DNA from: a virus
Reading direction: 5' to 3' (one strand)
Virus record (IMG/VR): IMGVR_UViG_3300044971_003826
Coordinates: 1-20,653 of that record
Length of the DNA stretch: 20,653 nucleotides
Under the pieces are notes generated by a model, which saw only the letters and a program-made list of their open reading frames with translations, did no database searches and was not told the origin of the DNA. The position numbers were made by a program, and so were the translations under genes. The number at the start of each line of letters is the position of its first letter. Position 1 is the first letter of the stretch. This document shows, piece after piece, positions 4,902 to 16,050 of the stretch.

Positions 4902-5746
4902 TATCTGTTGTAGGTATTGGTGAGTTTTGTTCTAAGCTTGCCAATGGTTTGTCAAAATATAGCCAATATAATGTTTATGCAGTAGCAGATAGCAAACTAT
5001 CAACAAACTGTCTTGTAGTGAAGTCACTTGACAACGCAGAACAATATGAAAAGGAATATTCCGAGTTTGCTTGGAGTTCTCTTGTAAAAGACAGTAATAC
5101 TGAAATATCGGTAATAGTGGATGGATCGGAAGCAGTAAGTGGAGTTGTTCTTGCTCTTTTAGAAAAGTTTAGAGATAGAAAAATAAATGTTTATTATGTC
5201 AAGTCAGATCTTGAACTGATGGGAAACATAGAAAAACTACAACATAAAGTGTGTTTTGGTATACTACAAGAATATGCCCGTTCTGGTTTGTTTGAAAACT
5301 TTATTTTATTTGATAAAACAAAACTGGAAAATATGTTGAATAATGTCAGTATTTTAGAAATAGAAGAAGAAACAGCAACTCTTATGAATTCAACATTACA
5401 TTATGTAAATGTTTATAGTAACTTGAAGCCAATGATGTCAAACAATGTATCAATGAGTGATATAACAAGAATACAAACTATTGGACTATCAGAAATAGGC
5501 TCTCTTGATATCAACTGGTTTTATGATCTGGAAAATATAGAAGAAGTTATATATTATTTCGCTATAAACTCTGATACTCTCAAAAAAGAAAAAAAACTGC
5601 TACAAACAATAAAAAATCAAGTAAAGGAAAAACAAAAAGAAAACAACATAAAAGTCAGTTTTAGTATTTTTGAAACAAAATACAACCAAAACTTTGTATA
5701 TTGTGTAGGAAAAACAAAACATATCCAGCAGCAGCAGACGGCTTGA
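4898..5746 (+). CDS. Possible tubulin/FtsZ-fold protein with a degenerate nucleotide loop
   Basis: A 282-residue protein coupled to the polymerase by an ATGA overlap. The N-terminus reads as a Rossmann-like strand-loop-helix-strand: VVGIGEFCSKLANGL (4-18) then YNVYAVADSK (24-33), matching the start of FtsZ/tubulin folds. After a predicted strand (EISVIV, 69-74) comes DGSEAVSGVVLALLEKF (75-91), where FtsZ has its Gly-rich signature loop GGGTGTG followed by a helix. This continues into INVYYVKSDLELMGN and a helix ending EYARSGLFENFILFDKTKLE, resembling the FtsZ region that leads to IVIPND.LL. What is visible is this order of elements. The family call is inference, and the GTP loop is not canonical. 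The C-terminal part is Lys/Glu/Gln-rich and ends in a Gln run. It could instead be an unrelated NAD-binding-like protein. The stop codon lies inside the -35 box of the next promoter. Confidence 0.45.
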   Translation: MISVVGIGEFCSKLANGLSKYSQYNVYAVADSKLSTNCLVVKSLDNAEQYEKEYSEFAWSSLVKDSNTEISVIVDGSEAVSGVVLALLEKFRDRKINVYYVKSDLELMGNIEKLQHKVCFGILQEYARSGLFENFILFDKTKLENMLNNVSILEIEEETATLMNSTLHYVNVYSNLKPMMSNNVSMSDITRIQTIGLSEIGSLDINWFYDLENIEEVIYYFAINSDTLKKEKKLLQTIKNQVKEKQKENNIKVSFSIFETKYNQNFVYCVGKTKHIQQQQTA

Positions 5747-5771
5747 CAGGTGATCTGATCGGTGCTATGAT
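5743..5771 (+). promoter_or_regulatory. Strong sigma70-type promoter for the Arg/Ser-tail gene
   Basis: TTGACA (5743-5748), a 17-nt spacer and TATGAT (5766-5771) make a near-consensus promoter. The TGA stop of the upstream gene (5744-5746) lies within the -35. Transcription should begin near 5778, below the in-frame ATGs at 5767 and 5770, which fixes the real start of the next gene at 5827. Six-base arms TCGGTG (5759-5764) and CACCGA (5782-5787) flank the -10 and could form an operator or hairpin. Confidence 0.8.
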
Positions 5772-6250: not shown

Positions 6251-6279
6251 GGGCCGAGAAATCGGCCCTTTACTTTTTT
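6251..6279 (+). terminator. Rho-independent terminator of the RS-tail gene
   Basis: A perfect 7-bp stem GGGCCGA/TCGGCCC closes a GAAA tetraloop and is followed by a T-rich run (6269-6279). It lies 19 nt after the stop codon. Confidence 0.88.
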
Positions 6280-6334
6280 ATGAGACAGTGATAAAGTAGA
6301 AACAGTCAATATTGAAAGTTATTAGATAATCTTA

Positions 6335-6408
6335 TTGACAACATGATTGGCTTTGTTTGTGCCAACATTTACGGTCTTCTCAACAATAAGTTGATGAGCC
6401 ACAAGGAG
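6335..6408 (+). promoter_or_regulatory. Structured leader of the ssDNA-binding protein gene
   Basis: TTGACA (6335-6340) resembles a -35 box, but no good -10 follows at 15-19 nt. Downstream are two small hairpins: TTGGC/GCCAA (6347-6365, 9-nt loop) and TCAAC/GTTGA (6380-6394). Next comes the ribosome site AAGGAG (6403-6408). A 22-codon open frame (6343-6411) runs through the leader and stops on the ribosome site, but has no ribosome site of its own. T4 gene 32 is translationally autoregulated through leader structure, so this leader may serve the same purpose; that is inference. Confidence 0.35.
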
Positions 6409-6416
6409 TAAGTAAA

Positions 6417-7154
6417 ATGGGTATTGATATTCGCGCTATGCAAAAAAAACTTGAAAAACTCAATAACAAGGGTAAGTCAAGTTCAGAGTCTGCTTTCTGG
6501 AAGCCAGATGATGGTATTCACGAAGTTCGTGTTCTACCAACACCAGATGGCGATCCATTCAAGGAGTTTTGGTTTCATTATAATGTTGGAAACCAAAGTG
6601 TAATGTGTCCAAAGCGTAACTTTGGAGAGGATTGTGCTGTTTGTGAGTTCGCCACAAAGTTGTTCAAGAGTGGTGAGCCAGATAGTGTTGCTGCAGCAAA
6701 AGAACTTTTTGTTCGTCAGCGTTTTCTATCTCCTATCCTTGTTCGTGGAAGTGAAAAGGATGGAGTAAAAGTTTGGTCCTACTCAAAGACTGTATATGAA
6801 GAACTACTAAAAACAGTTCTTGATCCAGACTTTGGAGATATTACAGATCCAGAAAATGGTTTTGATCTAAAAGTAGATAAGGGCAAGAAAAATGGTGCTC
6901 GTTATTCAACCATGACAGTAAAACCCAAGCCAAAGTCAACACAAATGTGCAAGGGTCTTGGTAGTCAAGAGTGCAAAGAACTACTTGATAGTGTTCCTGA
7001 TCTATCAGCTATCTTTACACGAATGTCTCCACAGGAAGTTCAAGCAGCACTTGATAAACATCTGGCAGAACCAGATGAAGCAAGTGTTGGTGTAGAAAAA
7101 GGTGGTGGCGTTGAAAATGCTGTTGACGCCGCTCTACGCGAACTTGATCTTTGA
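6417..7154 (+). CDS. gp32-like single-stranded DNA-binding protein
   Basis: A 245-residue protein that should coat single-stranded DNA during replication and recombination. The layout matches T4 gp32. A basic N-terminal segment of about 20 residues (MGIDIRAMQKKLEKLNNKGK) precedes a core beginning FWKPDDGIHEVRVLP. Within the core are a probable zinc site H54, C64, C73, C76 (H-x9-C-x8-C-x2-C; T4 gp32 uses one His and three Cys in similar order) and aromatic residues around FKEFWFHYNVG. The Asp/Glu-rich C-terminus (for example LAEPDEAS and ALRELDL) is as expected for the tail that recruits replication partners. A strong ribosome site AAGGAG precedes the ATG. It lies one gene upstream of the recombinase, its expected partner, but a terminator and a fresh promoter lie between them, so the two are expressed separately. 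Confidence 0.88.
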   Translation: MGIDIRAMQKKLEKLNNKGKSSSESAFWKPDDGIHEVRVLPTPDGDPFKEFWFHYNVGNQSVMCPKRNFGEDCAVCEFATKLFKSGEPDSVAAAKELFVRQRFLSPILVRGSEKDGVKVWSYSKTVYEELLKTVLDPDFGDITDPENGFDLKVDKGKKNGARYSTMTVKPKPKSTQMCKGLGSQECKELLDSVPDLSAIFTRMSPQEVQAALDKHLAEPDEASVGVEKGGGVENAVDAALRELDL

Positions 7155-7167
7155 TGCACAATAGAAG

Positions 7168-7196
7168 TTGACAAAGACGACCAAAGAGGGTAAAAT
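7168..7196 (+). promoter_or_regulatory. Strong promoter for uvsX, with its -10 in a terminator loop
   Basis: TTGACA (7168-7173), a 17-nt spacer and TAAAAT (7191-7196). The -10 box occupies the loop of the terminator hairpin at 7177-7208, and the predicted start near 7203 falls in its 3' arm, so the new transcript cannot form the hairpin. Confidence 0.82.
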
Positions 7197-7211
7197 CTCT
7201 TTGGTCGTTTT
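7177..7211 (+). terminator. Terminator of the ssDNA-binding gene overlapping the next promoter
   Basis: A perfect 12-bp inverted repeat ACGACCAAAGAG/CTCTTTGGTCGT (7177-7188 and 7197-7208) has an 8-nt loop and is followed by T residues. Pairing can extend into the flanking A and T bases. It ends the upstream transcript while hosting the promoter of the next gene. Confidence 0.85.
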
Positions 7212-7250
7212 CTATTTGCAGCATAACTATTTCAAGGAGAAAAAAGAAAT

Positions 7251-8405
7251 ATGGCAAAACTAAAAGAAGTAAAAGCGGGAAAAGTAGATGTAGCCGAACT
7301 ACGAAAAGCACTAAACAGTAAACTAAAAGGTGCTGTTTATGATCTGCGTGAACAAAATCCAACAGATGTAAAAGATTGGATCTCAACTGGTTCAACATGG
7401 CTTGATGGTATTGTTTGCAAGGGTAAAATGGCTGGTATACCAGTTGGAAAAATAATAGAAATAGCCGGTATACAAGCAACAGGAAAAAGTTTTCTTGCTG
7501 CGCAAATAGCAGGCAACTCACAAAAACTTGGCATTACACCAGTTTATTTTGATGCTGAAAGTGCGCTAAACAGCGACTTCCTGACAAAAGCAGGATGTGA
7601 TCTTGAAAGCTTGATATATATTCAGCCAACTGATCTTGAAAGTGTTTTTGAAACAATGGAAACACTTATGGGTTCAAGTGATCAAAGATTTCTTTTTATC
7701 ATTGATTCGCTTGCGGCAACACCAACAAAAGTTGATATTGAAGGAACATTCAATCCAAATGAGCGTATTGGCGTAAAAGCAGCACTACTTGCAAAAGCAT
7801 TTCAAAAAATAACAACACCACTTGCTCAACGAGAATGCACACTCATTATACTAAACCAACTAAAAGTAAACATCAAAGCAACAAGTGAAGCCCCGATGGG
7901 TGGCAAATATCTAACAGATAGTCAAAAATACAATACACCAGGCGGTAGTTCACCAGACTTTTTTACAAGTTTGCGTATATGGCTTACCAAGTCATTTGCC
8001 AAAGACAGCATGGTTTATGATGATAAAGGCTATCAAATAGGTTCATTTGTAAAAGCAAGAATAGAAAAAAGCCGTTTTGGAACACAAAATCGTGTTGCCG
8101 AGTTCAAAATATTGTGGGGCGATCAAGTTGGTGTTCTAAATGAAGAAAGCATTCTTGAAGCAATCAAGGGAAAAACCGAACACCTTGAAACAGGAGGTTG
8201 GAACAAACTAACCTATGCCGATGGAACAGTAGAAAAGTGGCAGGGTTTGGAAGAAGGTTTTGTAGAACTAATGAGAACAAATGAAAAGTTCCACAATCGT
8301 GTTATGGAAATATTTGATTATGAAGTTATTCAGAAGTTTGATAAGAAATTGGGAGATGCCAAGGATTTCCTAAATGATGGCAAAGGCGAAGACGTTCAAC
8401 ATTGA
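7251..8405 (+). CDS. uvsX: UvsX/RecA-like recombinase
   Basis: A 384-residue ATP-dependent strand-exchange protein, close to the length of T4 UvsX. The ATPase core shows Walker A GIQATGKS (73-80), the RecA-type catalytic segment DAESA with E103 (101-105), and Walker B FLFIIDSLAA (147-156). A later stretch, LIILNQLKVN, followed by a Gly-rich loop with PGGSSPDFF, corresponds to the DNA-binding loop region of the family. The C-terminal 100 residues are charged. It should form filaments on single-stranded DNA coated by the gp32-like protein, supporting recombination-dependent replication and repair. AAGGAGA precedes the ATG. The TGA stop lies within TTGACT (8402-8407). UvsX is preferred over bacterial RecA because of the phage context, but the distinction rests on inference. 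Confidence 0.88.
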   Translation: MAKLKEVKAGKVDVAELRKALNSKLKGAVYDLREQNPTDVKDWISTGSTWLDGIVCKGKMAGIPVGKIIEIAGIQATGKSFLAAQIAGNSQKLGITPVYFDAESALNSDFLTKAGCDLESLIYIQPTDLESVFETMETLMGSSDQRFLFIIDSLAATPTKVDIEGTFNPNERIGVKAALLAKAFQKITTPLAQRECTLIILNQLKVNIKATSEAPMGGKYLTDSQKYNTPGGSSPDFFTSLRIWLTKSFAKDSMVYDDKGYQIGSFVKARIEKSRFGTQNRVAEFKILWGDQVGVLNEESILEAIKGKTEHLETGGWNKLTYADGTVEKWQGLEEGFVELMRTNEKFHNRVMEIFDYEVIQKFDKKLGDAKDFLNDGKGEDVQH

Positions 8406-8530: not shown

Positions 8531-8560
8531 AGAACCCGCAGAAATGCGGGTTTCTTCTTT
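8531..8560 (+). terminator. Terminator, copy 1 of a 31-bp exact repeat
   Basis: An 8-bp stem AACCCGCA/TGCGGGTT (8533-8540 and 8545-8552) has a GAAA loop and a T-rich tail. The same 31 bases recur exactly at 8993-9023. Confidence 0.88.
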
Positions 8561-8992: not shown

Positions 8993-9022
8993 AGAACCCG
9001 CAGAAATGCGGGTTTCTTCTTT
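8993..9022 (+). terminator. Terminator, copy 2 of a 31-bp exact repeat
   Basis: Identical to 8531-8560: stem AACCCGCA/TGCGGGTT (8995-9002 and 9007-9014), GAAA loop and T-rich tail. It stands 21 nt upstream of the next -35 box. Confidence 0.88.
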
Positions 9023-9043: not shown

Positions 9044-9072
9044 TTGACACCGCACCGATCTGCTGCTACAAT
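9044..9072 (+). promoter_or_regulatory. Strong sigma70-type promoter for the deaminase gene
   Basis: TTGACA (9044-9049), a 17-nt spacer and TACAAT (9067-9072). Start expected near 9079, followed by AGGAG (9088-9092) and ATG 9102. Confidence 0.8.
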
Positions 9073-10741: not shown

Positions 10742-10750
10742 TGTTATGAT
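10742..10750 (+). promoter_or_regulatory. Extended -10 promoter abutting a terminator hairpin
   Basis: TGTTATGAT fits the extended -10 pattern TGnTATAAT. No clear -35 is seen. The predicted start near 10757 falls in the 5' arm of the hairpin at 10751-10770, so the new transcript would escape termination and could drive the 5' nuclease gene. Confidence 0.6.
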
Positions 10751-10778
10751 ACCCCACTGCAAAGTGGGGTTTTCTTTT
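10751..10778 (+). terminator. Terminator after the basic-peptide gene
   Basis: An 8-bp stem ACCCCACT/AGTGGGGT (10751-10758 and 10763-10770) has a GCAA tetraloop and the tail TTTTCTTTT. The 3' arm AGTGGGG sits 9 nt before ATG 10779 and may double as a weak ribosome site. Confidence 0.87.
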
Positions 10779-15993: not shown

Positions 15994-16021
15994 TTGACAG
16001 CGTCTGAAAACATGCTAAACT
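15994..16021 (+). promoter_or_regulatory. Promoter abutting the terminator after nrdB
   Basis: TTGACA (15994-15999), a 16-nt spacer and TAAACT (16016-16021). The predicted start near 16028 lies within the 5' arm of the hairpin that follows, shortening its stem in the new transcript. Confidence 0.62.
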
Positions 16022-16024
16022 TGG

Positions 16025-16050
16025 AAGCGTCCCTTGATCGGGGCGCTTTC
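16025..16050 (+). terminator. Terminator after the helicase-RNR operon
   Basis: A 9-bp stem AAGCGTCCC/GGGGCGCTT (16025-16033 and 16040-16048, one G-T pair) has a 6-nt loop and a short T tract that continues TTTCT. Confidence 0.7.

Follow-up and report, generated by a model that had tools for sequence, protein, structure and literature searches.

A predicted insulator-restart element in which a promoter is interlaced with a terminator hairpin between gp32-like and uvsX-like phage genes

Elements combining a promoter with a stem-loop are known from T4-like phages as PeSL (promoter-early stem-loop) cassettes, according to excerpts of PMC4503421, which cites Arbiol et al. 2010 (doi 10.1093/gbe/evq006) and Comeau et al. 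2014 (doi 10.1093/gbe/evu129). The element analyzed here, found in a 20.7-kb virus fragment from an IMG/VR record (the window, that is, the whole stretch of DNA analyzed), resembles them in combining a strong sigma70-type promoter with a stem-loop terminator where two genes meet, and in the proposed logic of stopping and then restarting transcription. A terminator downstream of gene 32 is conserved in five of six T4-like genomes (excerpts of PMC1524935), likewise directly after the ssDNA-binding gene; those excerpts mention no promoter within that terminator, a difference from the element described here. In phage RB49, our scan recovered many tandem PeSL-like cassettes, and in the typical ones the hairpin is followed by the promoter, whose -10 falls some 40-56 nt beyond the loop, whereas promoter and hairpin are interlaced in the gp32-uvsX element. 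No paper on overlapping promoters and terminators was found in a literature search, although the original PeSL papers may describe interlaced cases.

In the window, a promoter and a terminator hairpin occupy the same 44 bases (7168-7211), within the 96-base gap between the gp32-like and uvsX-like genes. The features are as follows:

6251-6268, + strand: terminator upstream of gp32 (scan)
6417-7154, + strand: gp32-like ssDNA-binding protein gene, 245 aa, the upstream unit (Pfam PF08804, E=1.7e-11; phrog_1192)
7168-7173, + strand: -35 hexamer TTGACA (sequence, promoter scan; TTGAC invariant in 15 sequences)
7177-7188, + strand: 5' arm of the terminator hairpin, ACGACCAAAGAG, within the promoter spacer (sequence, fold, compensatory changes)
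7189-7196, + strand: hairpin loop, GGTAAAAT, holding the -10 hexamer
7191-7196, + strand: -10 hexamer TAAAAT, in the hairpin loop (sequence, promoter scan, relatives)
7197-7208, + strand: 3' arm of the terminator hairpin, CTCTTTGGTCGT (sequence, fold, relatives)
7203, + strand: predicted transcription start, midway along the 3' arm (7 nt past the -10; G at this position in all relatives)
7209-7217, + strand: T-rich tail of the terminator, TTTCTATTT (sequence; T-rich in all relatives)
7234-7239, + strand: ribosome-binding site AAGGAG of the uvsX-like gene (sequence)
7251-8405, + strand: UvsX/RecA-like recombinase gene, 384 aa, the downstream unit (Pfam PF00154, E=1.8e-34; phrog_97)

The sequence-only reading had described TTGACA-17-TAAAAT as interwoven with a T-tailed inverted repeat of 12 perfect base pairs (7177-7188/7197-7208), which is correct to the base, and had placed it between two replication genes, in agreement with the Pfam and PHROG assignments of a gp32 family protein upstream and RecA/UvsX downstream. 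The hexamers, 17 nt apart, match the promoter consensus at 11 of 12 positions in the promoter scan (scored against the general sigma70 consensus), and thus have the form of a sigma70-type promoter, with TTGACA/TATAAT-like hexamers 16-18 nt apart that are kept in relatives. The hairpin has the form of an intrinsic terminator, namely a stable stem (12-15 bp, -22 to -23 kcal/mol) followed immediately by a T tract on the same strand. RNA of 7168-7220 folds at -23.1 kcal/mol (shuffle mean -8.2, z -6.7) and RNA of 7150-7230 at -30.2 kcal/mol (z -6.8); a longer pairing in the latter, 81-nt fold (7154-7166/7211-7224) was rejected as part of the element since it is not kept in relatives. We counted as comparable any composite in which a promoter matching at least 10/12 has its -10 within the loop of a hairpin of at least 10 bp that carries a T tail; dinucleotide-shuffling the window 2,000 times produced none on either strand. 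The palindrome has no second copy within the window, even with mismatches allowed, the junction DNA has no match among 50,697 phage records, and neither an Rfam family nor a tRNA was matched.

We found the element at the same gp32-uvsX junction in 14 of 14 related contigs (gp32 85-100% identical). In all 15 sequences the spacer is 17, the -35 reads TTGAC(A/G/T) and the -10 reads TAAAAT or TAATAT, and the loop position of the -10 and the T-rich tail on the promoter strand are kept throughout. Pairing is equally constant, with Watson-Crick pairs in 150 of 150 core-stem cells (ten core pairs in 15 sequences), compared with a mean of 136 when the 3' letters were re-dealt; none of 20,000 such shuffles reached 150. 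Both partners differ in three pairs (G-C to C-G, A-T to T-A and A-T to G-C), compensatory changes that preserve the pairing of an intrinsic terminator; all changes run in the same direction, and because only four distinct stems occur, few independent compensatory events are represented. Three contigs (L031, L034 and L036) were missed by the hairpin scanner owing to its G-T limit, and direct pairing gives 11 Watson-Crick pairs in each. A DNA pattern run across the whole collection matched 12 contigs. In ten, already known as relatives, the match is at the gp32-uvsX junction; the matches in L142 and L149 lie within unrelated sequence and were rejected as chance. Since promoter and pairing are both conserved, the latter with two-sided changes, selection appears to hold both.

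We consider it likely that the element at 7168-7211 is a compact insulator-restart, in which a promoter was fitted into an older post-gp32 terminator. RNA arriving from gp32 would carry both arms, fold the hairpin and stop at about 7209-7217, while a new polymerase at TTGACA/TAAAAT would start at about 7203, inside the 3' arm. Because the 5' arm is absent from it, this new RNA is proposed to escape termination, forming no hairpin, passing the T tail and entering uvsX with a leader of roughly 48 nt. The two genes would then become separate, separately controlled transcription units. In folding, the full hairpin reaches -22.4 kcal/mol and RNA from the predicted start 0.0, with no hairpin retained. 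The sequence-only reading had also proposed an insulator and restart at this junction; the conserved hexamers, spacer, pairing, loop and tail and this difference in folding uphold its design, with the start and stop sites themselves being predictions. Termination may be partial because the T tail is interrupted and the stem is only half G-C, and promoter activity in the host is predicted from a sigma70 consensus match, which is not proof of it.

Such an overlap could also regulate. A terminating polymerase might cover the uvsX promoter, so that heavy gp32 transcription would block it, an occlusion that would add to insulator-restart. The two signals overlap fully, and gp32 probably has a promoter region of its own as well as the upstream terminator, which leaves the gene bounded by terminators on both sides. 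Compactness alone nonetheless accounts for the overlap, because composites sit in very short gaps: they are intergenic, between co-directional genes, and mostly begin 3-26 nt past a stop codon. We therefore regard an occlusion switch as possible, although unlikely.

The same geometry occurs in phage RB49 at the junction of gene 39 with the gene that follows, where TTGACA-16-TATAAT forms a 12/12 promoter whose -10 makes up the loop of a hairpin of 13 bp; TTTTCTTTTATG comes after the hairpin, with TTTTCTTTT as the predicted 3'-end tract. This region occurs in 58 records from phages of Escherichia and Shigella, and the element is intact in nine of the nine records read, all Krischvirus, with a single tail base change in one. 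The GEC-3S record annotates promoter, -35, -10 and terminator overlapping at this site, so the interlaced arrangement already exists in annotation. While the geometry is shared, the Krischvirus element differs from the gp32-uvsX element in its unrelated sequence, its genes and its phage group, and we infer an independent origin of the two. In JSE (L253), a 564-base open reading frame (locus 178-741) lies between gene 39 and the intact RB49-type element, and in W115 an HNH endonuclease is annotated under the match corresponding to this inserted frame.

In-loop forms of unrelated sequence were also found in L188 (after uvsX), L208, L094, L221/L239 (after a ribonucleotide-reductase gene) and L190 (before a ligase-like gene), and those in-loop cases that were folded, RB49 included, show essentially the same loss of the hairpin from the predicted start. 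Around 296 unique terminators of other phages, counting same-strand promoters, seven matching at least 10/12 place the -10 no more than 8 nt from the centre of the loop, where the background would give about 1.3 per 16 nt, although one of the seven is the same site counted twice in two registers. At a threshold of at least 11/12, four lie in the loop against a background of 0.24. The excess is about 5-fold and 15-fold, respectively, with chances by hand Poisson calculation of about 0.002 (at least 10/12, six cases) and 0.0001 (at least 11/12), in a peak built on few independent cases (4-7). The tandem arrangement accounts for a second same-strand peak, of 14 cases, at +40 to +56, and the opposite strand has weaker peaks or none. 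One could go further and treat interlaced terminator-promoters as a separate, repeatedly evolved class, in which the overlap would act as a protein-free either/or switch (gp32 versus uvsX) readable from the geometry of a -10 in the loop; we find this doubtful.

The history of the junction can be read from more distant phages (gp32 43-51% identical), in which uvsX also lies 3' of gp32, usually 42-106 bases off. In most of these gaps there is a hairpin that looks like a terminator and has an unrelated sequence; no promoter of at least 10/12 accompanies it, although a few weak 9/12 matches occur. In another lineage (L085), a strong promoter stands in tandem after the same kind of post-gp32 terminator. 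L047, whose post-gp32 hairpin loop contains TATAAT unaccompanied by a -35, was not counted as a composite. Because distant phages keep the terminator without a strong promoter, the terminator is probably old, with the promoter hexamers fitted inside it later, in the group of close relatives. These same phages lend some weight to the simpler reading that an ordinary terminator merely carries a chance or inactive promoter-like match and that uvsX is expressed by read-through, since in them a terminator stands at the junction without any strong sigma70-like match, so that read-through or unrecognised promoters must serve them. In the 15 close sequences, however, the hexamers and their exact 17-nt spacing are kept without exception while neighbouring spacer and stem bases change, which makes this reading improbable.

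The inverted repeat across the -10 is also the classic geometry of a repressor site, and symmetric changes would be expected if a regulator and its site had changed together. The repeat might then be a palindromic operator for a dimeric regulator, its resemblance to a terminator incidental. This is very improbable in light of the single copy of the palindrome, the unrelated terminators without a promoter at the same place in distant phages, and the T-rich tail that every relative keeps on the strand of the promoter. Likewise, in-loop cases in other phages prefer the same strand by 11 to 0 (-20 to +9 of the loop centre), an excess that is smaller in a looser count around about 300 terminators. 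Sigma reads the -10 as single-stranded DNA, and a DNA hairpin promoter would present the -10 exactly in the loop of an extruded cruciform to aid polymerase binding. This can hardly be credited here, as extrusion would draw the spacer into the cruciform and abolish the 17-nt spacing invariant in 15 sequences, and the T tail would be needless. The promoters of the phage N4 virion RNA polymerase consist of a 5-7 bp hairpin with a 3-nt loop and no sigma70 hexamers, a type from which the 12-bp stem, 8-nt loop and both sigma70 hexamers set the element apart.

Insulator-restart remains our preferred reading of this junction, and we considered whether the design extends beyond it, as the sequence-only reading had supposed from two further junctions (10742 and 15994). 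Both exist, but they are of a looser type in which the -10 is not in the loop:

10745-10770, + strand: hairpin ACCCCACTGCAAAGTGGGGT immediately preceded by an extended -10, TGTTATGAT; a 5'-3' exonuclease gene follows
15994-16050, + strand: TTGACA-16-TAAACT and then an 11-bp hairpin with a weak T tail, after nrdB

Because the -10 lies just before the hairpin, the predicted start at each falls inside the 5' arm. At the exonuclease junction (TATGAT 10745-10750, hairpin 10751-10770, without a good -35), an arrangement also found in L115 and L117, RNA begun at the predicted start retains about 0 to -1.4 kcal/mol of folding energy. After nrdB, where the promoter (15994-16021) stands just before the hairpin (16023-16050), six of 11 pairs survive at about -9 kcal/mol, and such RNA would therefore not clearly escape. 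The post-nrdB composite is conserved in seven related contigs, and L117 has a different sequence in the same layout. In L112, L114, L120, L127 and L130, the post-nrd composite tracks a downstream MTDLKTLEQ-like gene, and the upstream reading frame varies.

In about 405 kb of close relatives, all strong in-loop composites lie at the gp32-uvsX junction, one per genome, and one weak 7-bp in-loop match occurs elsewhere, in L116. A genome-wide in-loop design within this phage group, as originally put forward, is thus rejected. The excess of promoter-terminator overlaps that had been expected is lacking within the group and present across phages, around the roughly 300 terminators scanned; because in-loop promoters exceed background there, the wider claim seems to hold in a weaker, cross-phage form.

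Several other features were observed in the window. Strong promoters whose spacer contains GATC and whose -10 is extended (TTGACAGGTGATCTGATCGGTGCTATGAT and TTGACACCGCAGCGATCCGCTGCTACAAT; the spacer of TTGACACCGCAGCGATCCGCTGCTACAAT also contains a palindrome) lie at 5743-5771 and 9044-9072, and also occur in related contigs; they are possibly a methylation-sensitive or regulator-bound class. The gp32 leader (6300-6410) contains several stem-loops with compensatory changes among relatives, one of them (GTCAATA..TATTGAC / GTCGGTA..TACCGAC) just before a TATGAT-like -10, and others at TTGGC..GCCAA and CAACAATAAGTTG; from their sequence, they resemble an activator site or an autoregulatory leader. 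The terminator GAACCCGCAGAAATGCGGGTTTCTTCTTTA occurs twice (8532-8553 and 8994-9015), about 460 bases apart, its copies flanking small genes that begin MKL(T/S)..KLK.IIKEEL, suggesting a duplicated cassette.

If the element works as proposed, one transcript is ended and the next begun in about 44 bases, with the same DNA read in two ways, and the escape rule, a start past the 5' arm, yields a sharp, testable prediction. RB49 infects laboratory E. coli, so its element is open to immediate testing. Where annotation software handles promoters and terminators as separate features, such sites will be overlooked or misinterpreted, and the element could offer a ready, compact insulator for gene-circuit work.

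Compared with PeSLs, the element likewise combines a promoter and a stem-loop at a gene junction. Nonetheless, the tandem order of PeSLs is absent, the -10 being inside the loop, as are many copies that could serve as recombination sites: PeSLs are repeated in variable regions, whereas this element is present once per genome (single in the window, and at one junction in about 405 kb), at a conserved replication junction. Because it departs from PeSLs in both order and copy number, we do not file it as one; it would work like a PeSL and is a variant of composite terminator-promoter elements, and we take it for an apparently genuine, if modest, compact form of the terminator-promoter cassettes of phages.
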